A stretch of 64,000 nucleotides of DNA from contig QJJF01000008.1 in assembly GCA_003202005.1 (NCBI GenBank), forward strand, positions 132,667 through 196,666, given 5' to 3'. Each line of letters opens with the position of its first letter. The stretch's first letter is position 1. A program made the translations under genes and the position numbers. The notes beneath the pieces are model-generated. The model did no database searches. It worked only from the letters and a program-made list of their open reading frames with translations, and had not been told where the DNA came from. This DNA is from Williamsia faeni (GTDB lineage Bacteria > Actinomycetota > Actinomycetes > Mycobacteriales > Mycobacteriaceae). Shown piece by piece: positions 10,690 to 47,916 of this stretch.

Positions 10690-10704
10690 TCCCATCCAGC
10701 GGGA
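10690..10704. promoter_or_regulatory. Cluster palindrome, site 1 (before the ketosteroid isomerase gene)
   Basis: TCCCATCCAGCGGGA keeps 11 of 15 positions of the cluster consensus TCCCGCTGAGCGGGA, with both outer arms TCCC/GGGA intact. It ends 41 bp before GTG 10746, or 71 bp before the alternative start TTG 10776. Confidence 0.5.
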
Positions 10705-10745
10705 CCACTGTGGCGAGATTCTGCGAATGCTGGTGATCTGTCCCG

Positions 10746-11147
10746 GTGTTCTCAACCAAGAGTGGTCCTGCAACGTTGTCGGCGAGAATAGCTTGCAGTG
10801 TCTCCCAATATATTTCGTTTCTGGACGCGGGAACCGCCGAGGCCATCGCCGATCTGTATGCACCGGACGCGACATTGGAAGACCCCGTAGGTACCGAGCC
10901 ACGCCGCGGGCGCGACGACATCCGGTCGTTCTACTCGAAGATCAGCAGTTCCGGTATCGCAGCTGAACTGATCACCATGCGGGTCTCCGGTAACTCGGCC
11001 GCTTTTCACTTTCGGGTCACCACAACAACGGCGGATCAGGTCATCACCATTGAGCCGATCGACGTCATGACTTTTGACAATGACGGACTCATCACCAGCA
11101 TGCGTGCATTCTGGTCACCGATCGATGTCCACACGATCCCGCTGTGA
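10746..11147 (+). CDS. Steroid delta5-isomerase-like protein (KSI, NTF2 fold)
   Basis: A protein of 133 residues from GTG 10746. It aligns along its length with Pseudomonas ketosteroid isomerase: QYISFLDAGTAEAIADLYAP, then LEDPVGTEPRRGRDDIRSFY and IEPIDVMTFDNDG. The KSI catalytic residues are in place (Tyr22, Asp46 and Asp106 in this numbering, for Tyr16, Asp40 and Asp103). It would move a 5,6 double bond to 4,5 in 3-oxo-5-ene steroids. No good ribosome-binding site precedes GTG 10746. TTG 10776 would place the Tyr at residue 12 and give the usual family N-terminus, so the true start may be there. The steroid cluster begins with this gene. Confidence 0.8.
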   Translation: MFSTKSGPATLSARIACSVSQYISFLDAGTAEAIADLYAPDATLEDPVGTEPRRGRDDIRSFYSKISSSGIAAELITMRVSGNSAAFHFRVTTTTADQVITIEPIDVMTFDNDGLITSMRAFWSPIDVHTIPL

Positions 11148-11229
11148 CGAGTGCCCGTGACGGCCGTTCCGGTTTGATACCGCATACCTACCAAGGCGCT
11201 TGATGCGCACCACTTCGAAGGGACTCCCT

Positions 11230-12447
11230 ATGGCAGAAGCAGTTGTCGTTGCCACCGCCCGTTCACCGATCGGCCGGGCCGTCAAAGGCTCGCTCAAAGA
11301 TGTCCGCCCCGACGAACTCGCCCGCCAGATGGTCGAGACCGTGCTGAACAAAGTCCCCGAACTCGATCGCAGCGACATCGACGACCTGCACCTGGGATCC
11401 GGACAACCAGCAGGCAAAGCCGGCTTCAACCAGGCCCGAGTCGTCGCCGTCCTCGCCGGACTCGACCACGTTCCCGGCGTCACCGTGAACCGCTACTGCT
11501 CCTCATCGCTGCAGACCACCCGCATGGCACTGCACGCCATCCGCGCCGGAGAAGGAGACACCTTCATCTCCGCCGGCGTCGAAAGCGTCTCGAACTTCGC
11601 TTTCGGAAGCGCCGACCGATGGCCCGACACCAAAAACCCCGAATTCGCCGCGGCCATGAAACGCACCGCCACAGCGGCAGAAGGCGGCACCACCTGGAGC
11701 GACCCCCGCGCACAAGGTCTCCAACCCGACATCTACATCCCCATGGGCGAGACCGCCGAAAACGTCGCCTCCTTCACCGGGATCTCCCGTGAAGACCAGG
11801 ACCACTGGGCCGTGCTCAGCCAGAACCGCGCCGAAGAAGCCATCAACTCCGGATTCTTCGCCCGCGAAATCGACCCCATCACCCTCGCCGACGGCACCCT
11901 CATCACCACCGACGACGGACCCCGCGCCGGCACCACCTACGACAAACTCAGCGCACTCAAACCCGTCTTCCGCCCCGACGGCACCGTCACCGCCGGCAAC
12001 GCCTGCCCCCTCAACGACGGCGCCGCCGCACTGGTGATCATGAGCGACACCAAAGCCAAAGCCCTTGGCCTGACCCCGCTGGCCCGCATCGTCGCCACCG
12101 CCGCCACCGGCCTGTCCCCCGAGATCATGGGACTGGGACCGATCGAAGCCGTCCGCAAAGCCCTGCGCTACGCCGGTATGAGCATCGACGACATCGACCT
12201 CTTCGAAATCAACGAAGCCTTCGCCGCACAAGTCCTCGGATCGGCCAACGAACTCGGCATCGACCACGACAAACTCAACATCTCCGGCGGCGCCATCGCC
12301 CTCGGCCACCCCTTCGGAATGACCGGCGCCCGCATCACCACCACACTGCTCAACAACCTCACCACCTACGACAAGACCTTCGGCGTCGAAACCATGTGCG
12401 TCGGCGGCGGACAAGGCATGGCGATGATCCTCGAACGCCTCAGCTGA
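11230..12447 (+). CDS. Acetyl-CoA C-acetyltransferase (thiolase)
   Basis: A 405-residue thiolase. Start region MAEAVVVATARSPIGRAVKG; acyl-accepting Cys in TVNRYCSSSLQTTR; His in [16 protein letters not shown]; second active-site Cys in VETMCVGGGQGMAM. It cleaves 3-oxoacyl-CoA with CoA and probably serves steroid side-chain beta-oxidation. ATG 11230 follows GAAGGGA; ATGs at 11200 and 11203 are weaker. Third codon positions are almost always C or G, more extreme than neighbours, which also creates a long spurious open frame on the opposite strand. That may reflect high expression. It lies 82 bp after the isomerase gene and 38 bp before the LLM gene, so the three probably form an operon. Confidence 0.92.
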   Translation: MAEAVVVATARSPIGRAVKGSLKDVRPDELARQMVETVLNKVPELDRSDIDDLHLGSGQPAGKAGFNQARVVAVLAGLDHVPGVTVNRYCSSSLQTTRMALHAIRAGEGDTFISAGVESVSNFAFGSADRWPDTKNPEFAAAMKRTATAAEGGTTWSDPRAQGLQPDIYIPMGETAENVASFTGISREDQDHWAVLSQNRAEEAINSGFFAREIDPITLADGTLITTDDGPRAGTTYDKLSALKPVFRPDGTVTAGNACPLNDGAAALVIMSDTKAKALGLTPLARIVATAATGLSPEIMGLGPIEAVRKALRYAGMSIDDIDLFEINEAFAAQVLGSANELGIDHDKLNISGGAIALGHPFGMTGARITTTLLNNLTTYDKTFGVETMCVGGGQGMAMILERLS

Positions 12448-12485
12448 GCCATTGGTCGCCACCACCACAGGGAAGCTGCAGAGAT

Positions 12486-13367
12486 ATGCGTCTTGGCATT
12501 TCAACACCGGTTCTGGTCCAGCATCCGAGCACCCGTTCGGCGTGGGAAGCCACCGCAACCATCGATGACGTAGCGGAGATAGCCCAGTGCGCTGATCGTC
12601 TCGGCTTCCACCATCTCACCTGCAGCGAGCATGTGGCGGTACCGGTCGAGGTGGCGGCCGAGCGCGGTGGGACGTACTGGGATCCGCTGGCAACGTTCGG
12701 ATATCTGGCCGCTCGAACCCGGCAAATACGTCTGGCCACACAGGTTTTGGTGCTGGGCTACCATCATCCGCTCGAGATCGCGAAGCGTTACGGAACGCTT
12801 GATCGCATCAGCGGCGGCCGTCTGATCCTCGGATTGGGAGTGGGCACGCTCCAGGAAGAATTCGAACTGCTCGGCACACCGTTCGGCGATCGCGGGGCTC
12901 GTGCCGATGACGCGCTCGCCGCGATACGCACGTCCATGTCGAGGTCACAACCCGAGTATCACGGCGTCTTCTACGACTACGAGGCTTTCGTGGTCCAGCC
13001 GCACGCCGTCCAGGAGCGGGTCCCGATCTGGATCGGTGGCCGCACCAAACGGTCGCTGCGCCGAGCGTTCGATCACGGTGACGGGTGGGTTCCGTTCGGG
13101 CTCAGTGCATCCGAACTGAAAGCGATGCTGGAAACGGTCAACCTCCCGACTGGCTTCGATGTTGTTCTGTCCGCGGGACTTCCCCTCGATCCGCTCGGGA
13201 ACCCCGACAAAACGGTCAAGACCCTGGCACGTCTGCGCGACGTGGGTGCGACAATCGCCGGCACCTCACTCGTTGCACAAGCTGCCACCCACTATGGGCA
13301 GCAGGTCGAAGAACTCCACCGACTCGCGCGTGACGAGGGTGTCGAGTTCACTCCCGGTCAACGGTAG
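12486..13367 (+). CDS. LLM-class (luciferase-like) flavin or F420-dependent oxidoreductase
   Basis: A 293-residue TIM-barrel protein. It begins MRLGISTPVLVQHPS and shows the family's LTCSEHVAVP, TRQIRLATQVLVLGYHHPLE, RLILGLGVGTLQEEF and VPIWIGGRTKRSLRRA. Mycobacterial members usually use coenzyme F420 and less often FMN. The substrate is unknown; within the steroid cluster a hydroxysteroid or ketosteroid redox step is likely. ATG 12486 is the first Met of the conserved domain and lies 38 bp after the thiolase stop. Confidence 0.85.
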   Translation: MRLGISTPVLVQHPSTRSAWEATATIDDVAEIAQCADRLGFHHLTCSEHVAVPVEVAAERGGTYWDPLATFGYLAARTRQIRLATQVLVLGYHHPLEIAKRYGTLDRISGGRLILGLGVGTLQEEFELLGTPFGDRGARADDALAAIRTSMSRSQPEYHGVFYDYEAFVVQPHAVQERVPIWIGGRTKRSLRRAFDHGDGWVPFGLSASELKAMLETVNLPTGFDVVLSAGLPLDPLGNPDKTVKTLARLRDVGATIAGTSLVAQAATHYGQQVEELHRLARDEGVEFTPGQR

Positions 13368-13380: not shown

Positions 13381-13395
13381 TCCCGCTGAGCGGGA
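13381..13395. promoter_or_regulatory. Cluster palindrome, site 2 (perfect copy)
   Basis: TCCCGCTGAGCGGGA is a perfect 7+1+7 palindrome. It ends 67 bp before the GTG of the SDR gene at 13463 and lies just behind the LLM gene. Confidence 0.7.
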
Positions 13396-15136: not shown

Positions 15137-15151
15137 TTCCACTCACTGGGA
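15137..15151. promoter_or_regulatory. Cluster palindrome, site 3 (before the MFS gene)
   Basis: TTCCACTCACTGGGA, read on the other strand as TCCCAGTGAGTGGAA, keeps 11 of 15 consensus positions. It is 186 bp before the MFS start, farther than at the other sites. Confidence 0.4.
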
Positions 15152-16948: not shown

Positions 16949-18004
16949 CTAGAACTCCACGTGGAGGTGGTCACTGATCGGGCGAGCCTGGCAGGCCAGG
17001 ATGTAGCCATCCGCGATGTCATCCTCATCAAGGATGGAGGCATTACCCATGTCGACTTTTCCATCGACCAATGTGCATGCGCACGAACCACATTCACCTT
17101 CGCGGCACGAGAAGGGCACGTCGATGCCCTTGGACAACAGTACGTCGACCAGCGTCACCGAGCGCGGCCAGGCGTACTCGTGCGAGTCCCCGTCGAGTGT
17201 GACCGACACCGTTGCCGCATCACCGGCCTCTTCTTCAGACAGGTCTGGCAGGACCACGTCCGCGAACGGATCACCGGAGAGCGAGGTGAACACCTCTGCA
17301 TGCACACGGTTGCGTGGGATACCGGCGCGTGCCGCGGCGTCGTGGACCGTGTCCATGAACGGCTTCGGTCCACACATGAACACCCGGTGGCCGGTGAACG
17401 AGGAGGCAAGGACTGCGAGCTGGCCCGCAGACGGCAGGCCCTGCACGCTCTCGAGCCAGTGGATCACCGTCAACCGGTCGCCGTGACGTGCCTCGAGCTC
17501 GATCAGTTCACGCGCGAAGATCACCGACGTCTCGTCTCGATTCGCGTACACCAGAACAACTTTGCGCGTGCCCTGACTCAGGGCCGACTTCAGGATGGAG
17601 ATCACCGGGGTGACGCCGCTGCCGGCGGCGAACAACAGCAGATCCTCATCGAGGTTCGTGGGCGTGAACACGCCGGATGGCGGCAAGACCTCGATCACAT
17701 CTCCGACGGTCACGTTGTCGCACAGCCAATGTGAGGCGTAGCCGCCCGCCGTCCGCTTGATGGTCACCTTCGGCAGATCGTCGGTGAACGGTGAACTGGC
17801 CAACGAATAGCATCGCGCGACCGACCCGGTCTGATCGCTCGGAACACGAAGGGTGAGAAACTGTCCGGGCGTGTATGCGAACTCGTCGACGCGGTCGGTA
17901 GGGACTTCGAACACCAGCGACCTCGCATCACTGGTCTCCTCGATGACCGCCGCGACGGTCATCTTTGCAGAACGCGAGCTGCTCGACGCTTGAGCGGTTG
18001 CCAT
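16949..18004 (-). CDS. kshB: 3-ketosteroid 9alpha-hydroxylase reductase KshB
   Basis: A 351-residue FAD/[2Fe-2S] reductase. The N-terminal flavin domain has RCYSLASSPF (FAD) and GSGVTPVISILKSAL (NADH side); the NAD domain ends in FMCGPKPFMD. The C-terminal plant-type ferredoxin carries Cys300, 305, 308 and 338 in CREGECGSCAC and YILACQAR. It passes electrons from NADH to the Rieske oxygenase KshA, which opens ring B together with KstD. The gene is alone on this strand, 20 kb from kshA. A cluster palindrome lies 76 bp before the start (18080-18094). Confidence 0.93.
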   Translation of the reverse strand: MATAQASSSSRSAKMTVAAVIEETSDARSLVFEVPTDRVDEFAYTPGQFLTLRVPSDQTGSVARCYSLASSPFTDDLPKVTIKRTAGGYASHWLCDNVTVGDVIEVLPPSGVFTPTNLDEDLLLFAAGSGVTPVISILKSALSQGTRKVVLVYANRDETSVIFARELIELEARHGDRLTVIHWLESVQGLPSAGQLAVLASSFTGHRVFMCGPKPFMDTVHDAAARAGIPRNRVHAEVFTSLSGDPFADVVLPDLSEEEAGDAATVSVTLDGDSHEYAWPRSVTLVDVLLSKGIDVPFSCREGECGSCACTLVDGKVDMGNASILDEDDIADGYILACQARPISDHLHVEF

Positions 18005-18079
18005 CGCGGACCATGCCTTTCCATACGTGAACTGGACTCGACGACACTAGGGCACCGGATGTGGCGCGTCACACCCACT

Positions 18080-18094
18080 TCTCGCTGAACGGGA
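18080..18094. promoter_or_regulatory. Cluster palindrome, site 4 (before kshB)
   Basis: TCTCGCTGAACGGGA keeps 13 of 15 consensus positions. It lies 76 bp upstream of the kshB start on the minus strand. Confidence 0.6.
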
Positions 18095-21645: not shown

Positions 21646-22583
21646 CAGTTCTCCTCGGGTGCGGCCGGCCGGAACGCGGGAAGCGTCAGATCCGGGTCGG
21701 CGTCGATCCAGTCCAATACCACCGGCATGTCGACCTTCACCTGGTCCGGTTCGATACCGACCATGTTGGCGATCAATCGGGTGCCCTCTTCGAGTTCGAT
21801 GACGGCGACGATCAGCGGATAGTCGAATGCATCGATCTTGGGATGGTGGTTGACGACAAAGCTGTAGACGAACCCCTTGCCCGAGGCGTCCACGGTGTCC
21901 CAGTCCAGTGACCGGCAGTGTCCACACATCGGCCCCGTCGGATGCCGCAGCGTTCCGCATGCGGTGCACCGCTGGATGACCAGTCGGTGTTCCTTGGCGG
22001 CGGCGAACCAGAAGGCGTTGTCCTGGTTGAGTGCCGGCCGGGGCCGCAACGCACGGGGCGCCGGCTTCTCCTCAGGACGGAAACGCAGTGTGCGCCACTT
22101 CTGGGTGGCCACGACGTCACCCTCCGCGTTGCGGTACGTCTTCAGCGTCGTCACGAAGTGCCCGGTACCCAGGCCGGTCTTCTTCTCCGGCGAAATCGAT
22201 TCGATGACCTCGGTGACGTTGATCAGGTCGCCGGGCCGCAGCTCGGTGAAGTATTCCTGCTCCGAGTCGGTGGCGACCACCGAGGTGAATCCCGCGTCGG
22301 CCAGCACACCGAAGAGCTCGACCGCCACCTCCGAACCGGTGCTGCCCGCCGCGGTTGCCGCGTAGCCCCGCATGGTCCAGGCCTGGACCATCGTCGGAGG
22401 GGCGATCGCACCGTCGTGTCCGGCGCTGCGGGCCGCGTCGTCATCGAGGTAGATGGGATTCTCATCGGCCATGGCCTCCACCCAGTGCCGGATCATCGGT
22501 GTGTTCACCGGATCCTGCGCCCACGTGGTGGGCACCACCTCCTGACCGACCAGGTTGCTCAGCGCCGCGTCGATCCCGCTCAT
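21645..22583 (-). CDS. chsH2: ChsH2, MaoC-DUF35 fusion subunit
   Basis: A 312-residue protein like Rv3542c. The N-terminal half is a MaoC-like domain (NPIYLDDDAARSAGHDGAIA, PPTMVQAWTMRGY). The C-terminal half is DUF35, with a zinc ribbon formed by Cys206, 209, 220 and 223 (CTACG...MCGHC) and an OB fold after it. The N-terminal part completes the hydratase with ChsH1; the DUF35 part binds and activates Ltp2. The ATG at 22583 overlaps the chsE2 stop by four bases. Confidence 0.93.
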   Translation of the reverse strand: MSGIDAALSNLVGQEVVPTTWAQDPVNTPMIRHWVEAMADENPIYLDDDAARSAGHDGAIAPPTMVQAWTMRGYAATAAGSTGSEVAVELFGVLADAGFTSVVATDSEQEYFTELRPGDLINVTEVIESISPEKKTGLGTGHFVTTLKTYRNAEGDVVATQKWRTLRFRPEEKPAPRALRPRPALNQDNAFWFAAAKEHRLVIQRCTACGTLRHPTGPMCGHCRSLDWDTVDASGKGFVYSFVVNHHPKIDAFDYPLIVAVIELEEGTRLIANMVGIEPDQVKVDMPVVLDWIDADPDLTLPAFRPAAPEEN

Positions 22584-23746
22584 TTTCCACGCCCCATGCG
22601 GGTGGTACCCAGGCCGATGGTGGCGACCATGTCCCGCAGCACCTCGTTGACGCCACCGCCGAAGGTGTTGACCACGCCCTGCCGAGAGATCTGTTCGATC
22701 TGACCGGCCAGGATCGCACCCGGGTTGTCGGGACGGATACGTCCTGCGGCACCCAGAATCCCGAGCAGGGTCCGGTAGACGTCGACGTGGGTCTCGGTGC
22801 CGAATACCTTGGTGGCACCGGCATCTGCGCCCGAGAGGGTATCGGCGGCGACCGCGGCGGTCATCTTCCAGTTCATCAGTCGCATGGCGACCAGCTTCGC
22901 GTGCGTACGCGCGAAATCCTGCTGGACCCAGGGGATCTCGATGGCACCGGACTCTTTGGCCCATTCCAGCACCTGGTTCCACAGGCCCTCGGTCCGCCCG
23001 CCGAGTGCGGCCAGACCGATGCGCTCGTGATTGAGCTGCGCGGTGATCAGGCGCCAGCCGCCGTTGGCCTCACCGACAAGGGCTTCGGGGCCGACCCGGA
23101 TTCCGGTGTAGTAGGTGGAGGTGACCATCAGACCGCCCACGGTTGGAATCGGCGACCACGAGAAGCCTGGATCGTCGGTGGGGACCATCAGGATTGAGAT
23201 GCCCTTGTGCTTGGGTGCTTCCGGATCGGTTCGGCAGGCCAGCCAGACGTAATCAGCGGTGTTCGCGCCCGAGGTGAAGATCTTGTTGCCGTCGACCACC
23301 CACTCGTCGCCCTCGCGGACCGCCCGGGTCTTGAGGGAGGCCAGATCTGTGCCGGCGTCCGGTTCGGTGTATCCGATCGCGAAAACGATGTCGCCGGAGA
23401 GGATTCCGGGCAGGAACCTGGCCTTCTGCTCCTCGGTGCCGTATTTCTGCAGGATCGGTCCGACGGTGTTGACGGTGACGAAAGGGAATGGCAGGCCGGC
23501 GCGCTGCACCTCGTCGAAGAAGACGAACTGATCCTCGATCGAGCGTCCCTGACCACCGAACTCCACCGGCCATCCGATGCCGAGCCAACCGTCTTTGCCG
23601 AGCATCTTGACGACCTCACGGAAGCGGGGCCCGCCGACGCCCTGCTCACCGGCCGCACGGCGCTCGTCCTCGGGCAGGAGCGTTGAGAAGTACGCGCGCA
23701 GTTCCCTTCTGAGCTCCTGCTGCTCGGGCGATTCAGTCAAATCCAT
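22580..23746 (-). CDS. chsE2: ChsE2 (FadE29-like) acyl-CoA dehydrogenase subunit
   Basis: A 388-residue acyl-CoA dehydrogenase like Rv3543c: EQQELRRELRAYFSTLLPED, FAIGYTEPDAGTDLASLKTR (FAD/substrate loop), TYYTGIRVGPEALVGEANGG and TFGGGVNEVLRDM. It is the catalytic partner of ChsE1. It is the first gene of the six-gene side-chain operon. GGAGAACC lies before the ATG, and a cluster palindrome lies 81 bp upstream (23827-23841). Confidence 0.92.
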   Translation of the reverse strand: MDLTESPEQQELRRELRAYFSTLLPEDERRAAGEQGVGGPRFREVVKMLGKDGWLGIGWPVEFGGQGRSIEDQFVFFDEVQRAGLPFPFVTVNTVGPILQKYGTEEQKARFLPGILSGDIVFAIGYTEPDAGTDLASLKTRAVREGDEWVVDGNKIFTSGANTADYVWLACRTDPEAPKHKGISILMVPTDDPGFSWSPIPTVGGLMVTSTYYTGIRVGPEALVGEANGGWRLITAQLNHERIGLAALGGRTEGLWNQVLEWAKESGAIEIPWVQQDFARTHAKLVAMRLMNWKMTAAVAADTLSGADAGATKVFGTETHVDVYRTLLGILGAAGRIRPDNPGAILAGQIEQISRQGVVNTFGGGVNEVLRDMVATIGLGTTRMGRGK

Positions 23747-23826
23747 CGTGGTTCTCCTATGACGTTTATGGCTATCGCTGCAGTTTTCTGGACGCTAACT
23801 GCGCGCCGCCGACTGCGGTAGCGAGG

Positions 23827-23841
23827 TCCCGCCCAGCGGGA
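23827..23841. promoter_or_regulatory. Cluster palindrome, site 5 (before the chsE2 operon)
   Basis: TCCCGCCCAGCGGGA keeps 13 of 15 consensus positions with both arms intact. It lies 81 bp upstream of the chsE2 ATG and 12 bp after the stop of the fadD gene. Confidence 0.65.
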
Positions 23842-25562: not shown

Positions 25563-26752
25563 CGTGCTCGAAGCACACAGTGTGTGCCACCGTAGATTGC
25601 CGTCATGCATTTGTTGTTGTGATTGCACAGTCCCGGCGAGTGGGTTTGTGCCGCAATTCGATTGACGAGATCAGGCTCGCGAAGCAACGCCCGGGCAACC
25701 GCCACGAACTGGAATCCCTCGCGCATCGCCAGGTCCATGGTCTCTTTGCCGGTGATCCCACCGAGCAGGACCAGCGGCATCTTCACCGCTTCGCGGATCT
25801 GGCGGGCATCCTCCAGCAGGTATGCGTCCTTGTACGGGTACTCCTTGAGGAAGTGCTTGCCGACGAGCTGAATTCCCAGTTTTGTGGGCTGCGGCATCAC
25901 GGCGGCGAACTCACGCAGCGGGGCATCGCCTTTGAACAGATACATCGGGTTGAGCAGCGAGCTGCCCGCGGTCAGCTCCAATGCGTCGAGGGAACCGTCC
26001 TGTTCGAGCCACCTGGCGACCTGGATCGCTTCCTCGACCCAAAACCCGCCGGGCACACCATCATCCATGTTCAGCTTGGCCAGGATCGCGATCTTGTCGC
26101 CGACCGCGTCCCGGACTGCGAGTGCGATCTCGCGGGCGAAACGGGCCCGGTTCTCGAGCGAACCCCCGTACTCGTCCTTGCGCTTGTTCACCCGGGGACT
26201 CAAAAAGGAACTGACCAGGTAGTTGTGGCCGAAGTGGATCTCGACGGCGTCGAATCCGACCTCGATCGCCCGGCGTGCGGCCTCCGCATGCGCTTCGGTG
26301 ATCCGGGCGATGTCGGCTTTGGACGCGGGCTTGGAGAAGTTCTGCGTTGTCATACGAAACGCCCGCGAGGGCCCGAGCGCCGGGGTACCCAGATATTTCG
26401 AACCCGCGACCGGACCGGCATGCCCGATCTGGGCAGAGGCTGCCGCACCCTCGCTGTGGATGGCGTCGGTGAGCTTGCGTAGGCCGGGCATCGCCTCGTC
26501 GCGCCAGTAGATCTGGGCAGGCGACGTCCGGCCTTCGTATGAGACGGCGCAATATGCGACCGTCGTCATGCCGACACCACCGGCTGCGGGCTGGCGATGG
26601 AACTCGATCAGTTCGTCGCTGACCAGGCCCTTGGGCGTCAGACCCTCGAAGGTCGCCGCCTTGATGACCCGGTTGCGTAGCGTGATCGGCCCCAGTTTGG
26701 CGGGAGCCAACGGGTCGGCGTGCATCGTGGGCCGGCCGAGATCTGTCGTCAT
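25559..26752 (-). CDS. OYE-family NADH:flavin oxidoreductase, BaiCD/2,4-dienoyl reductase-like
   Basis: A 397-residue FMN-dependent TIM barrel: KLGPITLRNRVIKAATFEGL, EIHFGHNYLVSSFLSPRVNK, RKDEYGGSLENRARFAREIA and the C-terminal phosphate-binding GITGKETMDLAMREGFQFVA. A Cys-rich end (CNHNNKC and GGTHC) resembles the iron-sulfur region of larger family members, but the FAD/NAD domains of dienoyl-CoA reductase are absent. Bile-acid bacteria use relatives (BaiCD, BaiH) to reduce 4- or 6-enes of 3-oxo steroids. GGAGGAA lies 9 nt before ATG 26752. A palindrome at 26821 separates it from the divergent acyl-CoA synthetase gene. Confidence 0.88.
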   Translation of the reverse strand: MTTDLGRPTMHADPLAPAKLGPITLRNRVIKAATFEGLTPKGLVSDELIEFHRQPAAGGVGMTTVAYCAVSYEGRTSPAQIYWRDEAMPGLRKLTDAIHSEGAAASAQIGHAGPVAGSKYLGTPALGPSRAFRMTTQNFSKPASKADIARITEAHAEAARRAIEVGFDAVEIHFGHNYLVSSFLSPRVNKRKDEYGGSLENRARFAREIALAVRDAVGDKIAILAKLNMDDGVPGGFWVEEAIQVARWLEQDGSLDALELTAGSSLLNPMYLFKGDAPLREFAAVMPQPTKLGIQLVGKHFLKEYPYKDAYLLEDARQIREAVKMPLVLLGGITGKETMDLAMREGFQFVAVARALLREPDLVNRIAAQTHSPGLCNHNNKCMTAIYGGTHCVLRAR

Positions 26753-26820
26753 GGTGATATTCCTCCAGCTGCGATTATTCGCCGAACGGTATCGTCGCCA
26801 CCGTTTCCGAGAAGGCCGAG

Positions 26821-26835
26821 TCTCGCTCAGTGGTA
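26821..26835. promoter_or_regulatory. Cluster palindrome, site 6 (between OYE and acyl-CoA synthetase genes)
   Basis: TCTCGCTCAGTGGTA keeps 11 of 15 consensus positions. It is about 70 bp from both divergent start codons (26752 and 26906). Confidence 0.5.
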
Positions 26836-33211: not shown

Positions 33212-33270
33212 GTCGTTCAATTCCCATGTTGTTCGTGCCGCTGTCGGTCTCGTGATTTCGGGTGGGTGTG

Positions 33271-34548
<1,278 letters not shown>

Positions 34549-34708: not shown

Positions 34709-35323
34709 TCAGAACTCGTTGGTCGACATCCGGGCCAGCAACAGATCACACGCCGTGCGGATATCCGATTCGGCGTCGGGGATGGAGATACGGCCGTTGA
34801 GACAGGACTGGATCACACCGAGCCACAGCTGCATCAACAGCCGGACCGCCGTGTGGTCGTCCTCAGTCGGGTGTTCGATGCCCGCGGCGTTCATCACGAT
34901 GTCGTGAAATGCGCGGTCGATCTTTGCGGCATCGGGCACCGTCGCCGCGTTGGCCGTACTGCTCGACTGGATCATTGCCGTCGACAATGCCGGTCTGCGC
35001 AAGAGGGCGCGGGTCGACCGGACGAGCACCTCGTAGATCGCATCCTTACCGCCGTGCGCCGGCGGGCGCCGCGCGAGATTGTCGTTGATCTGCTCGATCT
35101 GCTCGACCATGACCGCGACGAACAGGTGGGTCTTCGACGGGAAATACCGATATAGCGTGCCGATGGCCACGCCGGCCCGCTTGGCGACCTCGTGCATCTG
35201 CACCCGCGAGAACTCTTTCTCGGTCGCCAACTCGGCGGCGGCCTCCAGCATCCGGACATGGCGGGCCCGCTGCTCGTCGGAACTGGGTTCCGCGGCGTCC
35301 CTCGCCTCGCCGATTCTCGGCAC
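34709..35323 (-). CDS. TetR-family regulator, KstR-like
   Basis: A 204-residue TetR regulator. Helix-turn-helix VQMHEVAKRAGVAIGTLYRY followed by FPSKTHLFVAVM; the rest is the helical ligand domain (RALLRRPALSTAMIQSSSTA, LLMQLWLGVIQSCLNGRISI). KstR of M. tuberculosis has the same AVQM-RAVA-RAxVAxGTLYRYFPSK-HL sequence pattern, so a steroid-CoA ligand is probable. GTG 35323 has GAGGAGG about 7 nt upstream. It is encoded between the fadA5 operon and a divergent kstD gene, with a cluster palindrome at 35403 and the TAGAAT palindrome at 34485 on either side. It is the natural candidate for the TAGAAT sites. Confidence 0.88.
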   Translation of the reverse strand: MPRIGEARDAAEPSSDEQRARHVRMLEAAAELATEKEFSRVQMHEVAKRAGVAIGTLYRYFPSKTHLFVAVMVEQIEQINDNLARRPPAHGGKDAIYEVLVRSTRALLRRPALSTAMIQSSSTANAATVPDAAKIDRAFHDIVMNAAGIEHPTEDDHTAVRLLMQLWLGVIQSCLNGRISIPDAESDIRTACDLLLARMSTNEF

Positions 35324-35402
35324 CGTCAGTCCTCCTCGTCATGCGCTCACGCGCGTTGTCGCTCTCTGACTGTCTCATCACCGTAGGAAACAGTGACACT
35401 CT

Positions 35403-35417
35403 GTCCGGTGAGTGGGA
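35403..35417. promoter_or_regulatory. Cluster palindrome, site 7 (between the TetR gene and kstD)
   Basis: GTCCGGTGAGTGGGA keeps 11 of 15 consensus positions. It is 67 bp before the kstD start and 79 bp before the TetR start. Confidence 0.45.
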
Positions 35418-38282: not shown

Positions 38283-38297
38283 TCTCGGTTAGTGGGA
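38283..38297. promoter_or_regulatory. Cluster palindrome, site 8 (between hsaA-like gene and kshA)
   Basis: TCTCGGTTAGTGGGA keeps 11 of 15 consensus positions. It is 83 bp from the hsaA-like start and 86 bp from the kshA start. Confidence 0.5.
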
Positions 38298-38383
38298 CAT
38301 GGGCTCTGGATGTGTGCGCGATCACCTAGCGTTCGAACAACCACGCCACTGCCACAAACTCTCCATGGAAGGACGGACACATC

Positions 38384-39544
38384 GTGACCACCCCGCAGTC
38401 CGAATCAGTCGAGATCCGTGAGATCGACACCGGGACTCCACCCGCGCGGTTCGCCCGCGGCTGGCACTGCCTCGGCCTCTCCGATTCTTTCCGGGATGGC
38501 AAACCCCATTCCATCCAGGCTTTTGACACCAAATTGGTGGTGTTCGCGAACAGCTCGGGCGAGCTCGCGGTCCTCGACGGATATTGCCGGCACATGGGTG
38601 GGGACCTGAGTCAGGGCACGATCAAGGGCGACGAGGTGGCGTGCCCGTTCCACGATTGGCGTTGGGGAGCCAACGGCCGGTGCAAGAAGATCCCGTACGC
38701 CCGTCGGGTACCTCCGGTCGCGAAGACGCGGTCGTGGAAGGTGCTCGATCAGGACGGCATGCTGTTCGTCTGGAACGATCCCGAAGGCAATCCCCCACCG
38801 GCCGATGTCACGATCCCCCGCATCGAGGGAGCACTCAGCGACGAATGGTCCGATTGGGTCTGGTACCAGGTCACCGTCGACACGAACTGTCGCGAAGTGG
38901 TCGACAACATCGTCGACATGGCGCACTTCTTCTACGTGCACTACTCTTTCCCGACATTCTTCAAGAATGTGTTCGAGGGGCATGTCGCCAGCCAGTTCAT
39001 GCGTGGCCAGGCGCGTGAGGACATGCGGCCGCATGCCGCCGGGCAGCCCAAGATGCTGGGAAGCCGCTCTGACGCAACCTATTTCGGTCCTTCCTTCATG
39101 ATCGACGATCTGGTGTACCAGTACGAGGACCATGACGTCGAGTCAATCCTCATCAACTGCCACTACCCGGTCAGTACCGACAAGTTCGTTCTGCAGTACG
39201 GCATGATCGTCAAGAAGTCGAAGCAACTCGAGGGCGACGCCGCCGATGAGATGGCCAAGAACTTCGGAGTCTTCATCGCAAAAGGCTTCGAGCAGGACAT
39301 CGAGATCTGGAAGAACAAAACGCGTATCGAGAATCCGTTGCTCTGCGAAGAGGACGGACCCGTTTACCAGTTACGCCGCTGGTACGAGCAGTTCTATGTC
39401 GATGTCGCCGACGTGACACCGGAGATGACCGAACGCTTCGAGTTCGAACTCGACACGACGCGCCCGGTCGAGTCATGGAAGAAGGAAGTGGAAGCAAACC
39501 TCGAACGGAACGCGGGCACTGATGCAGCCATTGCAGTGCACTGA
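38384..39544 (+). CDS. kshA: 3-ketosteroid 9alpha-hydroxylase oxygenase KshA
   Basis: A 386-residue Rieske oxygenase. The Rieske centre is Cys68-x-His70 and Cys87-x2-His90 (YCRHMGGDL, ACPFHDW). The mononuclear iron site is the N-x2-D-x3-H-x4-H pattern NIVDMAHFFYVH (His181, His186). It hydroxylates C9 of 3-ketosteroids; with KstD the unstable product opens ring B. Electrons come from KshB at 16949. GTG 38384 is about 10 nt after GAAGGA. The first five residues are unconserved, so the exact start is less certain than the identity. Confidence 0.94.
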   Translation: MTTPQSESVEIREIDTGTPPARFARGWHCLGLSDSFRDGKPHSIQAFDTKLVVFANSSGELAVLDGYCRHMGGDLSQGTIKGDEVACPFHDWRWGANGRCKKIPYARRVPPVAKTRSWKVLDQDGMLFVWNDPEGNPPPADVTIPRIEGALSDEWSDWVWYQVTVDTNCREVVDNIVDMAHFFYVHYSFPTFFKNVFEGHVASQFMRGQAREDMRPHAAGQPKMLGSRSDATYFGPSFMIDDLVYQYEDHDVESILINCHYPVSTDKFVLQYGMIVKKSKQLEGDAADEMAKNFGVFIAKGFEQDIEIWKNKTRIENPLLCEEDGPVYQLRRWYEQFYVDVADVTPEMTERFEFELDTTRPVESWKKEVEANLERNAGTDAAIAVH

Positions 39545-42987: not shown

Positions 42988-44703
42988 TCAGCCAGCTGCC
43001 ACGTCTGCGGCGGCGTGCTGCTCTACCTCCGCCACGTGCTGGGCGGCGATGTATCCGAACACCATCGATGGACCGATGGTCGCTCCGGCGCCGGCATACT
43101 CGTTACCCATCACAGACGCGGACGTGTTGCCGGTGGCATACAGACCTGTGATGGCAGTGCCGTCTTCCCTGAGCACCCGGCTGTCCGCGTCACAGACCAG
43201 ACCGCCCTTGGTACCCAAATCTCCTGCTTCACAACGAATTGCATAGAACGGACCCTTCACGATCTCGTCGAGGTTCGGGTTCTTCATCGTCGGATCGCCG
43301 TAGTACCGGTCGTACGCGCTGTCACCTCGGCCGAAGTCTTCGTCCTTGCCCGTGCGCGCGAAGCCGTTGAACCGTTCGATGGTCTTCGCCAATTCCTTCG
43401 CCGGAATCCCCACTGCCTGAGCCAGTTCCGCCAGTGTGTCGGCCTTGTGCACAACACCGGAGTCATAGAAGCCCTGGGGGAATGGAACATTCGGGAGAAC
43501 CTGTGCAAACGGGTACCGGTTCTTGGCCTTGGTGTCCATGATGAACCAGGCCGGCACGTGGCCACCTTCGAGCTGATCGTGGACGAAGTTCACGTACGGT
43601 GCCGATTCATTGGTGAATCGGCGACCCGCACTGTTGACGATGACCGACGCCGGGATGCAACGCTCGGACACCAGCGGGATGACCGCGCCCATGGGGTGGA
43701 AGACCGACGGCATCCACCAGGCATCATCCATCAGGTCGACGGCCGCACCGAGACGCTGGCCGGCAACGATGCCATCTCCCACGTTCTCCCTGGCCCCTGC
43801 ACTGATGTCCGGAACACCCTTCTCCGGAAGATATTTCGCGCGCATCTCCTTGTTGTGATCGAACCCACCGGTCGCCAGGAGCACACCTTTGCGCGCCCCG
43901 ATGCGAACGGTCTTGCCGTCACGCTCGGCCACCACACCGATGACAGTGCCGCGGTCGTCGGTGATCAGGTCGGTCATGGAGGTCTTGAGCCACAACGGGA
44001 CACCGGCGTCCTTGAGCACCATCCGCATCCGGGCGACCAACGCGCGGCCACCGGTTGCCATATGCCGACGACGGATCACGTTGGACGAGACGCGCCAAGC
44101 GGCGACCAGCGATGCCTTGCGTCCCTTCCAGGTGCGCTTGACCATGGCCAGATCGTGATAGTCCTTCGAGGTCACCCACAGGCCCAGCGGACCCTTCATG
44201 CTGTTGGGGCGCTGGTGCTTCTCGTCCTCTTTCAGCGCCCGGGTGTCGAACGGTTTGCACTCGATGGTGCGTCCCAGCGGGCGCCCACCTTCGAGCTCGG
44301 GATGGTAGTCGGAGTAGCCCTTGACCCAGTACATCTTCATGTGTGGGCTCTTGTCGAGCAGTTCCATCAGCTCGGGGCCGTTGTCGACGTAGGCGTCCAG
44401 ACGGTCCGCGGGCACTTTGCCCTCGGTGATGATGTCGAGATACCTGCGAACTGAACTGCGGCTGTCGACAACACCTTTCGCGCGCAACGTCGGCGCATTG
44501 GGGATCCAGATCCCACCACCGGAGATCGCTGTGGAACCACCATAGGTGGCACCCTTGTCGATGATGAGGGTGTCGAGATCGTGGTGCGCCGCTGTGATGC
44601 CGGCAGCCATACCTCCGCCGCCGCTGCCGACGATGAGAAAGTCGACCACATGGTCGAAATCGCCTGCTGTGTTGCGGTTGTCCGTCATCCGGTTGTCCGT
44701 CAT
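42988..44703 (-). CDS. kstD: 3-ketosteroid delta1-dehydrogenase family flavoprotein (second copy)
   Basis: A 571-residue FAD enzyme, longer than the copy at 35485: VVDFLIVGSGGGGMAAGITA, IIDKGATYGGSTAISGGGIW, HMATGGRALVARMRMVLKDA and TGLYATGNTSASVMGNEYAG with GAGATIGPSMVFGY. The Tyr-x3-Gly pair (EYAGAG) is present. It is more similar to the KstD3/delta4-dehydrogenase group than the first copy, by eye. The N-terminus is a 15-bp tandem repeat, ATGACGGACAACCGG twice (MTDNRMTDNR). The ATG overlaps the hsaD stop by four bases. Confidence 0.88.
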   Translation of the reverse strand: MTDNRMTDNRNTAGDFDHVVDFLIVGSGGGGMAAGITAAHHDLDTLIIDKGATYGGSTAISGGGIWIPNAPTLRAKGVVDSRSSVRRYLDIITEGKVPADRLDAYVDNGPELMELLDKSPHMKMYWVKGYSDYHPELEGGRPLGRTIECKPFDTRALKEDEKHQRPNSMKGPLGLWVTSKDYHDLAMVKRTWKGRKASLVAAWRVSSNVIRRRHMATGGRALVARMRMVLKDAGVPLWLKTSMTDLITDDRGTVIGVVAERDGKTVRIGARKGVLLATGGFDHNKEMRAKYLPEKGVPDISAGARENVGDGIVAGQRLGAAVDLMDDAWWMPSVFHPMGAVIPLVSERCIPASVIVNSAGRRFTNESAPYVNFVHDQLEGGHVPAWFIMDTKAKNRYPFAQVLPNVPFPQGFYDSGVVHKADTLAELAQAVGIPAKELAKTIERFNGFARTGKDEDFGRGDSAYDRYYGDPTMKNPNLDEIVKGPFYAIRCEAGDLGTKGGLVCDADSRVLREDGTAITGLYATGNTSASVMGNEYAGAGATIGPSMVFGYIAAQHVAEVEQHAAADVAAG

Positions 44704-45575
44704 CGTTGGGTCCTGTCTGTACGGGTGAGAAATGCCAGCACTGCACAGAGCCAGGCCTCACGGGCCTCGATCATCGTCCAGTGCCCGCACTTGGGGAATA
44801 CGTGAAGTTCTGCGTTCGGAATGTCGCGCATCGGCAGCACCGCCATGTCGACCGGGCTGACCCGATCGTCCCGACCCCAGGTGAGCAATGTCGGGGCGGT
44901 GATCTTGCCCAGCCGGGCCCAGTACGGCGGCACGTCGGATGCGGCAGCGGCAGCCATGCTCGCTGCAAATGCCTTACTGCTGTACATCCGTCGCGCGATT
45001 TCGAGTGTGGTCGGTTCGGTTGCGAGAGCCCAGCGTTCTTCGATCAGCTCCGGTGTCACCAGGGCCTGGTCATGGACCATTGACAGCAGCCACCGGATCA
45101 GACGCTCTCGTGTGGGGTCGTCGGTGAACTCCATCAGCAGTTTGATGCCCTCGCTGGGGCCCGATGAGAAAATGCTCTTTCCCATTCCGCCGATCGTGAC
45201 GAGTTTGCCGACGCGCTCGGGTTCATCGATCGCGACCTTGGTGGCGACGATGCCACCCATTGAGTTGCCGATCATGTCGACCGCACCGAGCCCGAGACCA
45301 TCGAGAAAGTGACCAACTGCCGACTGCGCCATCACCATCGGATGTCCCTCGGCCGGGTCACTGACACCGAAGCCCGGGAATTCGAGTACCAGGCAACGGA
45401 AATGCGCAGCGAGATCGGCGAGCACACCGCGGTAGTTGCGCCATCCCGTGACACCCGGACCAGATCCGTGGAGCAGCAACAGCGGAGGACCTTCTCCGGT
45501 CTCGTGATACCGCAGTACCCCGAGACTCGTCTCCAATTCCCTTTGGGTGCGCTCGTAGCTCACGTCTGTGGTCAT
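44700..45575 (-). CDS. hsaD: HsaD-type meta-cleavage product hydrolase
   Basis: A 291-residue alpha/beta hydrolase. Oxyanion loop LLLLHGSGPGVTGWRNYRG, nucleophile Ser105 in MIGNSMGG, Asp in WGRDDRVSP and His265 in FPKCGHWTMIEAREAW. HsaD cleaves the C-C bond of 4,9-DSHA to give DOHNAA (HIP) and HHD. First gene of the operon hsaD-kstD-hsaA-hsaC. A cluster palindrome is 42 bp before the start (45618-45632). The downstream enzymes HsaE, HsaG and HsaF are not in the window. Confidence 0.92.
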   Translation of the reverse strand: MTTDVSYERTQRELETSLGVLRYHETGEGPPLLLLHGSGPGVTGWRNYRGVLADLAAHFRCLVLEFPGFGVSDPAEGHPMVMAQSAVGHFLDGLGLGAVDMIGNSMGGIVATKVAIDEPERVGKLVTIGGMGKSIFSSGPSEGIKLLMEFTDDPTRERLIRWLLSMVHDQALVTPELIEERWALATEPTTLEIARRMYSSKAFAASMAAAAASDVPPYWARLGKITAPTLLTWGRDDRVSPVDMAVLPMRDIPNAELHVFPKCGHWTMIEAREAWLCAVLAFLTRTDRTQR

Positions 45576-45617
45576 GCGGGAGAGGTTGCCAGCACGTAAC
45601 GCCGCTCACAGCGATCG

Positions 45618-45632
45618 TCCCGTTGAGCGAGA
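45618..45632. promoter_or_regulatory. Cluster palindrome, site 9 (hsaD side)
   Basis: TCCCGTTGAGCGAGA keeps 13 of 15 consensus positions. It lies 43 bp upstream of the hsaD start. Confidence 0.6.
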
Positions 45633-45667: not shown

Positions 45668-45682
45668 TTCCACTCAGCGAGA
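45668..45682. promoter_or_regulatory. Cluster palindrome, site 10 (hsaB side)
   Basis: TTCCACTCAGCGAGA keeps 11 of 15 consensus positions. It lies 91 bp before the hsaB start; its centre is 50 bp from that of site 9. Confidence 0.5.
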
Positions 45683-45773
45683 CCACCTTGGGACGTGCTG
45701 CGGCCCGGCCATACGCTCGCAGCGTCATTGGAGTCGAATCCTTGACCACAGAACGGAATCGGAGGTGGATCTG

Positions 45774-46277
45774 ATGTCGATCGAAACGATGTCACAGGCC
45801 GAGATGCGCAGAGCTATGGGCCAGTTCGCAAGTGGTGTGACCGTGGTGACGGGCATGGACGACGCGGGACCGATCGGATTCGCGTGCCAGTCGTTCGCAT
45901 CGGTGTCGCTCGAACCGCCGCTGATCCTCTTCTGCGCCGACCACCGTGGTCGGTCCTGGCCACGAATCCGCGGCACCGGGAGGTTCAGTATCAATGTGTT
46001 GCACGAGGATCAGACCGACTTGTGCGCACGATTCGGGGGAAGCGCCGGCCTCAAGTTCGACGGACTCGAGTGGGACATGTCCAAGTGGACGACACCAGCT
46101 CTGCCCGACGTGCTGATGCGGGTGCACGCCGAGGTCCACGATGTGCACACCGCCGGCGATCACGACGTGGTGATCGGCCGGGTCCTCGAACTCGAGTCGG
46201 TGACCGAAGAACGTCCCCTGATCTTCTTCCGGGGCAAGTTCGGAATCGAGGCGCCCTCGACACCGCTCCGTACATAG
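45774..46277 (+). CDS. hsaB: HsaB-type flavin reductase
   Basis: A 167-residue FMN reductase of the HpaC/HsaB fold: MRRAMGQFASGVTVVTGMDD, GFACQSFASVSLEPPLILFC, RFSINVLHEDQ and DHDVVIGRVLELE. It supplies FMNH2 to HsaA-type hydroxylases. ATG 45774 is 8 nt after GGAGG; GTG 45765 overlaps that sequence. It diverges from hsaD and converges with the IclR gene, 28 bp between stops. Confidence 0.92.
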   Translation: MSIETMSQAEMRRAMGQFASGVTVVTGMDDAGPIGFACQSFASVSLEPPLILFCADHRGRSWPRIRGTGRFSINVLHEDQTDLCARFGGSAGLKFDGLEWDMSKWTTPALPDVLMRVHAEVHDVHTAGDHDVVIGRVLELESVTEERPLIFFRGKFGIEAPSTPLRT

Positions 46278-46305: not shown

Positions 46306-47199
46306 TTACACCCATTGCCCCGACTCGACGGCCAACAGCCGATCGAGCGCCTCGGAGGACCAGGTCTTCTCCGGCACGGCCACGGTTTTGCGACTTCGCC
46401 GCGGGGTCTCGGCTTCTGGGTAAAGCGTCCTCGTCGCTTCCCGGGCAGCGTGAACGACCAGTGGCGCAACCCTCTTGAGCTGTGAGGTACGAGAATCACC
46501 GCACAGCGAGATTGCGGCAACGGGACCGTCGAAACTGCGGACCGCGACTCCGACACACGAGACGTCCCGCACCGACTCTCCATGTTCGAGCGCGAGACCA
46601 TTGCGCTGGCGGATGCGATTGAGTTCCTGATGCAACGTCGGCAGATCGGTGATGGTGGACTCGGTGACCTGATTCAAGCGGTGCGGGTAGAGCGAATCGA
46701 CCTTCTCCGGATCCATCCAGGCCAGCATCGCTTTGCCACCGGCGGTGGAGTAGGCCGGAGCACGGCCACCGACCCGTGAGGGCAGCCGCGAGGCAAAACG
46801 TCCACCAACCTTGTCCAGGTAGACACTCTCGCTCCCGTCGAGCACAGACAGGTGCACCACCATTCCGGTTTGCATGTGCAGCTCGTGCAGCAGAGGTGCA
46901 GTCGCTTCCCGAATCTGGGCGTGACCACCGTCGCCACCGCCGAGTCCGATTGCCCGCCGTCCCAGGCCGTAGCCGAACGAGGCGTGTTCCGCCCAGTTCA
47001 AACGGACCAGCTGATCCAGGATGCGGTGGACCGTGGAACGCGGCAGCTGCGTACGACCGGCGACCTCCTCGAGAGTCAGTCGAGTCTTCGGGCCGTCAAA
47101 CGCGTCAAGGATGAGCGTCATGCGCTCCACCATCGACGGCGGCAGGTCTCGCCGCGAAGCTCCCACCGGAGCTGTGGAACCAGAATCAACGACAGTCAT
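46306..47199 (-). CDS. IclR-family transcriptional regulator
   Basis: A 297-residue IclR protein. The winged helix-turn-helix is LTLEEVAGRTQLPRSTVHRI, and the effector domain is typical: HMQTGMVVHLSVLDGSESVY, SRVGGRAPAYSTAGGKAMLA, then SVRDVSCVGVAVRSFDGPVA. ATG 47199 follows GGAGG. IclR regulators of catabolic clusters often act as activators and bind 15-bp pseudo-palindromes. A perfect copy of the cluster palindrome lies in its own promoter region (47275-47289), so I propose that this protein, or the TetR protein at 34709, reads the palindrome. Confidence 0.9.
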   Translation of the reverse strand: MTVVDSGSTAPVGASRRDLPPSMVERMTLILDAFDGPKTRLTLEEVAGRTQLPRSTVHRILDQLVRLNWAEHASFGYGLGRRAIGLGGGDGGHAQIREATAPLLHELHMQTGMVVHLSVLDGSESVYLDKVGGRFASRLPSRVGGRAPAYSTAGGKAMLAWMDPEKVDSLYPHRLNQVTESTITDLPTLHQELNRIRQRNGLALEHGESVRDVSCVGVAVRSFDGPVAAISLCGDSRTSQLKRVAPLVVHAAREATRTLYPEAETPRRSRKTVAVPEKTWSSEALDRLLAVESGQWV

Positions 47200-47274
47200 G
47201 GAGCCTCCAAACAACCTGGTCACCCTCGCGCCCAGGAACAAAACTGAAATGAATTCCTATTATGGTAGCACCGG

Positions 47275-47289
47275 TCCCGCTGAGCGGGA
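47275..47289. promoter_or_regulatory. Cluster palindrome, site 11 (perfect copy, between iclR and a SnoaL gene)
   Basis: TCCCGCTGAGCGGGA, identical to site 2. It is 75 bp from the IclR start and 72 bp from the SnoaL-like gene, symmetrical between the two. Confidence 0.7.
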
Positions 47290-47361
47290 AGAGGGCACAC
47301 AACCTCCACGGGACGAAGTCCCCTGGAACCAGCTGTTCACTCACGAGAAGGATGTGACGAC

Positions 47362-47850
47362 ATGAACGACCTGACACCCGACACAGAAGCCCTGGTCCGA
47401 TCCCTGGCCCAACGGGTCGCTTTGCTGGAGGACAAACTCGCCATCACAGAACTGATGACCGCCTACGGGCCCGCCATCGACAGCGGATCAGCCGAGGCCG
47501 TCGCCCGCCTGTGGACCGAGGACGGTGTCTACGACGTCGACACCGGCGTCATGCGTGGGCACGCCGAGATCACGGCAATGGTCCGATCACAGGCCCACCA
47601 GTCCTGGATCGAGGGTGGTTGTGGACACGTCCTGGAACCGGGGCACACGCGTGTCGACGGCACTACAGCGGTCTCGACGTGCAAGTCACAGTTGATCATT
47701 CGGGACGGCGACTCGTTCAAGGTCCACCGGGTCACGGCAACCCGATGGAACCTGGAAAAAATCGACGGCCAGTGGAAGGTGACAGTGCGGACCAGTCGCG
47801 TTCTCGACGGTCGCGCCGAGGCCCGCGATCTCCTGGCCGCGGGCCTCTGA
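47362..47850 (+). CDS. SnoaL/NTF2-fold protein, possible steroid dehydratase or isomerase
   Basis: A 162-residue protein: N-terminal helix SLAQRVALLEDKLAITELMT, then AYGPAIDSGSAEAVARLWTE, GVMRGHAEITAMV, GGCGHVLEPG and the closing strand RWNLEKIDGQWKVTVRTSRV. The spacing of Tyr35 and Asp40 equals that of Tyr30 and Asp35 in the bile-acid 7alpha-dehydratase BaiE, and His89 lies near the place of the catalytic His, though not in exact register. AAGGA lies upstream of ATG 47362. It is controlled by palindrome site 11. Function is inferred from fold and neighbours only. Confidence 0.78.
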   Translation: MNDLTPDTEALVRSLAQRVALLEDKLAITELMTAYGPAIDSGSAEAVARLWTEDGVYDVDTGVMRGHAEITAMVRSQAHQSWIEGGCGHVLEPGHTRVDGTTAVSTCKSQLIIRDGDSFKVHRVTATRWNLEKIDGQWKVTVRTSRVLDGRAEARDLLAAGL

Positions 47851-47901
47851 GCATCTGATCCTCCCGCACAGGAGCCGACCCGACGTGGCGGTTGCCATCG
47901 A

Positions 47902-47916
47902 TCCCGCTGAGCAAGA
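47902..47916. promoter_or_regulatory. Cluster palindrome, site 12 (before the Hsd4A-like gene)
   Basis: TCCCGCTGAGCAAGA keeps 13 of 15 consensus positions and lies 82 bp before the ATG at 47999. Confidence 0.6.

Follow-up and report, generated by a model that had tools for sequence, protein, structure and literature searches.

The 64,000-nucleotide stretch of the Williamsia faeni genome analysed here (the window; assembly GCA_003202005.1, contig QJJF01000008.1, positions 132,667 to 196,666) carries a steroid degradation cluster, with KstD-, HsaA-, HsaB-, HsaC- and HsaD-like proteins assigned by Pfam class and gene order. By the same means it is found to encode acyl-CoA ligases, acyl-CoA dehydrogenases, thiolases and MaoC hydratases, and its KshA is assigned by Pfam family. 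Two regulators encoded within it concern us here: an IclR-family protein (46306-47241, minus strand; HTH_IclR PF09339 at 42.2 bits with a cut-off of 22, IclR_C PF01614 at 128 bits with a cut-off of 24) and a TetR-family homolog of KstR (34709-35323, minus strand; phmmer E about 3e-24 to KstR chains). Repeated across the cluster is a 15-bp palindrome with the consensus TCCCGCT(S)AGCGGGA, here called the box, for which the IclR protein is our proposed reader and the TetR protein the rival.

An earlier note on this DNA had placed the box at twelve sites and a weaker copy at 39777, and all of them are found there. The best-strand match is 11-15 of 15 at the twelve sites and 10 of 15 at 39777, the 11 matches of the site at 15137 are reached on the reverse strand only, and perfect copies lie at 13381 and, upstream of iclR, at 47275. 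With up to three mismatches allowed, the window holds 22 strand-matches, a number that no single one of 100 shuffles attained (4.53 ± 2.18); because palindromes count on both strands, these amount to 16 distinct places, some of which fall outside the cluster. In a de novo palindrome search of 18 intergenic regions between 10 and 50 kb the box is the top motif (11 sites, score 199.7), the next unrelated motif scoring 82 and five shuffles, run with fewer starting points, at most 90. The note had called every site intergenic, which our gene calls, made with a crude codon-composition method that takes the longest open reading frame (ORF), bear out for ten of the twelve. The boxes at 35403 and 38283 lie inside N-terminal extensions of the longest ORFs, whose Pfam domains begin only at residues 57 and 66, and are therefore probably intergenic as well. 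Counter to this, the tblastn match of the ORF at 38283 to its Rhodococcus ruber ortholog starts at residue 17 and hence includes the box, whereas the orthologous kshA1 box sits within what the authors of the R. ruber Chol-4 study amplified as the ‘intergenic’ kshA1 region. An additional box-like site (15.2 bits) is present at 13352-13366, at the end of the preceding gene and 29 bp ahead of the perfect copy at 13381. The twelve window sites served to train the scoring matrix, so scores within the window are not independent, while those in relatives are.

At nine of the twelve boxes a hexamer of the form NANNNT is found 28-31 bp downstream towards the gene, compared with 2.1 on average and never more than 5 of 12 across the 57 other 4-nt offset windows, and we read these hexamers as putative -10 elements. 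On the minus strand, box TCTCGCTGAACGGGA (18080-18094) is followed at 30 bp by TAGTGT (18044-18049) ahead of a KshB/PaaE-like reductase gene (16949-18004), box TCCCGCCCAGCGGGA (23827-23841) at 29 bp by TAGCGT (23792-23797) ahead of an acyl-CoA dehydrogenase gene (22580-23746), and box GTCCGGTGAGTGGGA (35403-35417, 12.9 bits) at 28 bp by GACAGT (35369-35374) ahead of tetR. Box TCTCGCTCAGTGGTA (26821-26835), which is kept in R. ruber, lies between divergent genes for an old yellow enzyme (OYE)-family oxidoreductase (25559-26752, minus strand) and an AMP-ligase (26861-28567, plus strand), with TACCGT (26786-26791, minus strand) at 29 bp. For iclR, the perfect box TCCCGCTGAGCGGGA at 47275-47289 precedes CAGTTT (47241-47246, minus strand) by 28 bp, and the called TTG start at 47241 is therefore probably too early; a methionine follows at residue 15. 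The box of kshA (38384-39544, plus strand), TCTCGGTTAGTGGGA at 38283-38297, is kept in both R. ruber and Prescottella equi and has TAGCGT (38327-38332, plus strand) at 29 bp, the same hexamer and distance as in R. ruber kshA1. Two boxes 50 bp apart separate hsaD (44700-45575, minus strand) from hsaB (45765-46277, plus strand): TCCCGTTGAGCGAGA (45618-45632), with CAACCT (45583-45588, minus strand) at 29 bp, would serve hsaD, and TTCCACTCAGCGAGA (45668-45682), with TACGCT (45712-45717, plus strand) at 29 bp, would serve hsaB. Box TCCCGCTGAGCAAGA (47902-47916) is followed at 29 bp by GAAACT (47946-47951, plus strand) upstream of a short-chain dehydrogenase/reductase (SDR) gene (47999-48931, plus strand). 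At the other three, box TCCCATCCAGCGGGA (10690-10704), upstream of a SnoaL-like gene (10746-11147, plus strand) and a thiolase gene, has no -10 at 28-31 bp; the perfect box TCCCGCTGAGCGGGA at 13381-13395, upstream of two SDR genes (13445, plus strand), has its best -10, TAGAAT, at 34 bp; and box TTCCACTCACTGGGA (15137-15151), upstream of a major facilitator superfamily transporter gene (15170, plus strand), has only an imperfect TATCTC at 29 bp.

The relatives, found by a search with the IclR protein that yielded 79 partly redundant loci from named actinobacterial genomes, make this geometry sharper. Taking the last box before the gene, with the -10 disregarded in the choice, we find that NANNNT starts 29, 30 or 31 bp past the box in all 41 non-redundant hsaD promoters, the window included (7, 27 and 7 cases). 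The distance from box to hsaD start is variable (41-45 bp in most Rhodococcus loci, 88-119 bp in L005-L010 and L012, 63-90 bp in most others and 256 bp in L071), so the conserved distance is that to the -10 and not, as the earlier note had it, that to the start codon. The same peak appears on 322 other non-redundant flanks, for which each box scoring 15 bits or more contributed its two sides, the hsaD-proximal one excepted; TANNNT occurs there 17, 14 and 11 times at 29, 30 and 31 bp and 0-3 times at any other offset between 5 and 61. This distance of 29-31 bp between the end of the box and the -10 at hsaD promoters, with the same peak at other boxes, is new in this analysis. A clear -35 was not found, the mean similarity of 2.49 of 6 being only slightly above the 2.11 of shuffles. 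With a -10 at about -12 to -7, the box would span about -57 to -43 and be centred near -50, a position expected of an activator in contact with the polymerase, and fixed spacing of this kind without a clear -35 appears to follow the pattern of activator-dependent promoters. The two hsaB-hsaD boxes are spaced by 40, 49-50, 58-59 or 69-70 bp in relatives, with exceptions at 66, 83 and 93 bp in the non-redundant set; the vector strength is 0.78 at 10.25-10.5 bp over 30 non-redundant loci and 0.51-0.56 over the 10 unique values, which is suggestive only of a spacing close to whole helical turns.

Conservation of the box follows the IclR ortholog. A box of at least 13 bits is found upstream of hsaD, between hsaB and hsaD where hsaB was found and otherwise within 300 bp, in 61 of the 61 loci with hsaD in the fetched stretch, and upstream of iclR in 42 of the 79, while 300 permuted matrices give an average of 0.16 and a maximum of 16 for hsaD and a maximum of 7 for iclR. 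R. ruber and P. equi both have boxes before tetR and before kshA and a hsaB-hsaD pair 49-50 bp apart, and corresponding R. ruber boxes also stand before a mycofactocin-type SDR gene and between the OYE and ligase genes. De novo search of 28 R. ruber and P. equi ortholog upstream regions, with the window excluded, returns the box as top motif, which scores 233 in a degenerate form and 230 as the exact consensus, five shuffles giving no more than 110. From R. ruber by itself the score is 168, and from P. equi by itself 89, there for a degenerate form; a first run on poorly called intergenic regions of the two species had been dominated by coding-like TCGwCGA repeats. With a stricter pattern, 12 named genomes give 8-17 places each, versus 0-1 for the reversed control among the matches listed, many of them outside the cluster. 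P. equi has strong boxes outside its main cluster at C9:144740 and C11:134838; one precedes an IclR paralog, the other an OYE-like gene. We also considered TATCACTCAGTGATT, upstream of iclR in L046, L050, L064 and L067, as a co-varying box of an IclR paralog group; this candidate is weak because there is one copy per locus and no -10 on the expected iclR side in three of the four.

Across the 5.52-Mb W. faeni genome the strict pattern TYYCRNTNANYGRRA occurs at 30 places versus 6 for the reversed pattern. Seven of these lie in the present cluster, five in a second steroid cluster at C3:471-507 kb and 18 elsewhere. The earlier note's view that no copy exists outside the first cluster thus does not hold. 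Of the 12 in the two steroid clusters ten are intergenic by our gene calls, the matches at 38283 and C3:471263 falling in N-terminal parts of the longest ORFs. Among the other 18 we examined 16, of which 14 are inside called genes and two are intergenic, neither with NANNNT at 29-31 bp; a further strict match, at C3:437876, is inside a called gene. The second steroid-type cluster (C3:470-513 kb; loci L095-L097) has KstD-, HsaA-, HsaB-, HsaC- and HsaD-like genes, two IclR paralogs and a box variant of its own, close to TTCCRCTSAGYGGAA. One of the paralogs is 41% identical to the window’s IclR over the match and has TTCCGCTGAGTGAGA in front. At all five strict boxes of this cluster NANNNT is found 30 or 31 bp away towards a neighbouring gene.

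Four features of the window stand apart from the box. An acyl-CoA dehydrogenase of 764 residues (31025-33319, minus strand) has two C-terminal-domain matches and apparently consists of two fused dehydrogenase units. Universal stress proteins, a LuxR-type response regulator and a GAF histidine kinase are encoded at 3215-9183, in the likeness of a dormancy-type regulon. A 1353-residue protein (56942-61003, plus strand) combines a thermolysin-type peptidase domain with a bacterial Ig-like domain, and restriction genes of McrBC type lie at 61217-63981 (minus strand).

The box consensus was not familiar to the earlier note, but it is, by sequence, a close variant of a motif predicted before and so not wholly new. 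Lcin1, a 15-bp palindrome TCCCGGT[C/G]ACCGGGA obtained by phylogenetic footprinting in Nocardioides simplex VKM Ac-2033D, stands before lithocholate-induced operons orthologous to bile-acid genes, one kshA included (Shtratnikova et al. 2020, PMC7593942). The window consensus differs from it by one position per arm, and the exact Lcin1 form TCCCGGTGACCGGGA is present in relatives at the hsaD promoters of L029 and L033 and in genome G238 (L146). Its authors give no promoter spacing where the motif is described and leave its regulator open, favouring KR76_18060, the ‘KstR3’ ortholog; the word ‘IclR’ is absent from the main text (PMC7593942). They set aside KR76_18040, which adjoins the kshA gene KR76_18045, as not induced (PMC7593942). 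In G238 iclR is beside kshA with a box between the two, and by analogy KR76_18040 may therefore be the IclR of N. simplex. Our search of open-licence papers in PMC turned up none in which an IclR protein is named as the reader of this motif; most subscription papers (the RHA1 cholate paper included) and all supplements lay outside that scope.

Operators of IclR group 1 have been described as odd palindromes with an 11-nt core YCRYW3RYGR and as tandem sites in helical turns (Suvorova and Gelfand 2021, PMC8222616). The box, also an odd palindrome, resembles this core: with the centre left free, six of the twelve window boxes match it exactly and six with one mismatch, and among 64 distinct boxes of relatives the figures are 17 exact, 34 with one, 12 with two and 1 with three mismatches. 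It departs from the group in its centre, which is mostly S and not W, and in its outer flank TC..GA, present on both sides in 34 of the 64 distinct boxes and outside the subgroups TGT, GTT, WTT and NGT printed for the group (PMC8222616).

The kshA genes of R. ruber connect the box with published expression. In strain Chol-4, kshA1 was induced 8.8-fold by cholate, 6.5-fold by cholesterol and 2.3-fold by androstenedione, kshA2 18.3-fold, 7.0-fold and 22,438-fold by the same steroids, and kshA3 responded to cholesterol only (PMC8228715). Cholate induction of kshA1 and kshA2 occurs without KstR motifs, for which the authors suggest ‘other steroid regulators’ (PMC8228715). We find a box of 12.8 bits at R. 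ruber kshA1, with TAGCGT at 29 bp, and the Chol-4 kshA1 promoter primers map to the promoter of the window kshA's ortholog in R. ruber NBRC 15591. The kshA2-kstD2 region (L160) has two boxes, TCCCGGTGGGCGGGA (16.2 bits, TAGCCT at 30 bp), which points away from kshA2, and TCCCGCTGGGCGGAC (11.9 bits, CAGCAT at 31 bp), which points to it; TAGCCT is the -10 candidate of kstD2, which its authors consider rather far from the mapped start (PMC5348764). At R. ruber kshA3 and at the second kshA of the window genome a KstR-type site is present and no box of at least 11 bits was found. KshA1 alone of the KshA proteins is reported in cholic acid use (PMC8228715), and with the orthology this leads us to read the cluster as one of bile-acid type.

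We consider it probable that the palindrome is the operator of the cluster's IclR protein and that this protein is an activator. An IclR dimer would sit on each box, centred near -50 and 29-31 bp upstream of the -10 at promoters without a clear -35, and would there recruit or stabilize RNA polymerase. The trigger is probably a bile-acid or ring-degradation intermediate, and the targets would be the cluster operons, with hsaB, hsaD, kshA, the ligases, the acyl-CoA dehydrogenases, the KstR-like tetR and iclR itself. The earlier note had proposed an activator box read by IclR or TetR; the -10 spacing, the conservation with the IclR ortholog, the resemblance to the group-1 core and the boxes near IclR paralogs all support such a box, and the evidence leans to IclR as its reader without deciding the matter. 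That the KstR-like TetR, probably the KstR3 of the literature, reads the box seems unlikely to us, although much can be said for it. A TetR homolog of at least 49% identity is found in 54 of the 56 IclR-bearing genomes searched, so co-occurrence does not exclude TetR, and its presence or absence failed as a discriminator. In 14 of the 15 genomes looked at, the window's included, tetR is preceded by a box of 11 bits or more; tetR itself is probably one of the genes that the box regulator controls. Some IclR-bearing loci are without boxes. KR76_18060, moreover, is lithocholate-induced and is the Nocardioides authors' tentative choice for Lcin1 (PMC7593942). Against TetR, boxes also accompany IclR paralogs where the stretch contains no homolog of the window's TetR at E 1e-3, namely L095-L097 and L099 in the genome's own second cluster and L129 on P. 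equi C9, where the start of an IclR match of 73% identity follows TCCCGCTGAACGGGA at 84 bp. S. amethystogenes (L068) has two hsaB-hsaD boxes while its best TetR match is 43%. KstR operators are even palindromes around AACnnGTT; we rejected KstR control of the cluster, the pattern TnnAACnnGTTnnA having 9 window matches, all with one mismatch, where 8.5 are expected. SRTF1, a TetR divergent from a kstD gene in Pimelobacter simplex and a possible ortholog, binds a 22-bp palindrome, and a box 29-31 bp upstream of the -10 suits an activator, whereas KstR is a repressor. Of 296 genomes sampled from the class, 13 pass for IclR, and the 6 that pass for TetR are a subset of these, at cut-offs that differ; three IclR-only genomes hold TetR homologs of 42-46% in the same stretch, which weakens the contrast. 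A separate TetR operator, sought in 15 tetR upstream regions, gave nothing convincing.

More doubtful still is that IclR binds the box but mainly represses, to be relieved by a steroid intermediate. Many IclR proteins act as repressors, but a repressor does not require its sites at so constant a distance, and such sites usually overlap the promoter, whereas the box is centred near -50 at a nearly invariant distance from the -10 and without a clear -35. Control of R. ruber kshA1 and kshA2 by a repressor has been proposed (PMC8228715), and the expression of a box-less kshA1 fragment, described below, would fit operator removal. Hardly credible, finally, is that no protein reads the palindromes and that they are repeats due to chance or composition, or else RNA hairpins. 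Isolated matches within genes elsewhere in the genome would fit such an origin, but chance and composition are ruled out by the shuffles, the permuted matrices and conservation at 61 of 61 hsaD promoters; the -10 spacing also speaks against this reading, and a box upstream of the putative -10 would not be transcribed.

Several observations weigh against activation through IclR, in addition to the box at the rival's own promoter and the near-constant presence of TetR given above. In 37 of the 79 loci no box of at least 13 bits is found upstream of iclR, and seven (L013, L034, L046, L049, L050, L064 and L067) have no such box in about 21 kb, although their IclR proteins are 64-72% identical to the window's, with similar HTH segments. 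At the C3 box in front of the IclR paralog the -10 lies towards a divergent COX3-like gene and not towards iclR, and this orientation and the seven box-less loci lowered our confidence in IclR slightly. The boxes at 10690, 13381 and 15137 depart from the 28-31 bp spacing, and 13 distinct boxes of relatives have two or three mismatches to the group-1 core. In R. ruber, kshA1 and kshA2 rose on cholesterol too, and kshA1 rose only 2.3-fold on androstenedione. A 155-bp kshA1 fragment that, placed on the R. ruber NBRC 15591 sequence, is without the box and the putative -10 still gave apramycin resistance on LB (PMC8228715).

The proposed IclR activator has partial counterparts among known regulators. 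KstR and KstR2 are likewise dedicated to actinobacterial steroid catabolism, but they are TetR repressors of sterol side chain and ring degradation with the even palindromes TNNAACGTGTTNNA and AAGCAAGNNCTTGCTT. MhpR, PcaU and PobR activate from upstream sites. They are IclR-family proteins with related operators in aromatic catabolism (PMC8222616), though their ligands and operators differ. A further possible counterpart is SRTF2 of the Pimelobacter simplex steroid gene island, an IclR-family protein encoded beside a ketosteroid dehydrogenase gene and steroid-induced (PMC7062782); SRTF1 binds upstream of SRTF2, and no SRTF2 binding site is described in the account of the island (PMC7062782).

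As a wider and more tentative picture, to which we give somewhat less than even credence, the box regulator may be a dedicated IclR-family activator of bile-acid and steroid genes whose operator, locked 29-31 bp from the -10, replaces the -35. Such an activator would be conserved in Rhodococcus/Prescottella, Streptosporangiaceae, Geodermatophilaceae, Saccharopolyspora and Streptomyces and would make up a third steroid regulatory system in addition to those of KstR and KstR2, one whose targets include the KstR-like TetR. In the same picture, duplication of the regulator would have given parallel steroid regulons with slightly different boxes in one genome, as near TTCCRCTSAGYGGAA in the second cluster and at kshA2-kstD2 in R. 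ruber. Knowledge of bile-acid regulation is limited, according to a review (PMC8399759), and steroid regulators beyond KstR and KstR2 are called for by the R. ruber authors (PMC8228715). Since the box has a fixed promoter geometry and a named candidate reader, the question is open to simple experiments. If the reading is true, it would provide a steroid-responsive activator for biosensors and Rhodococcus engineering, and a box regulator could explain the cholate response of kshA1 and kshA2, which lack KstR sites.

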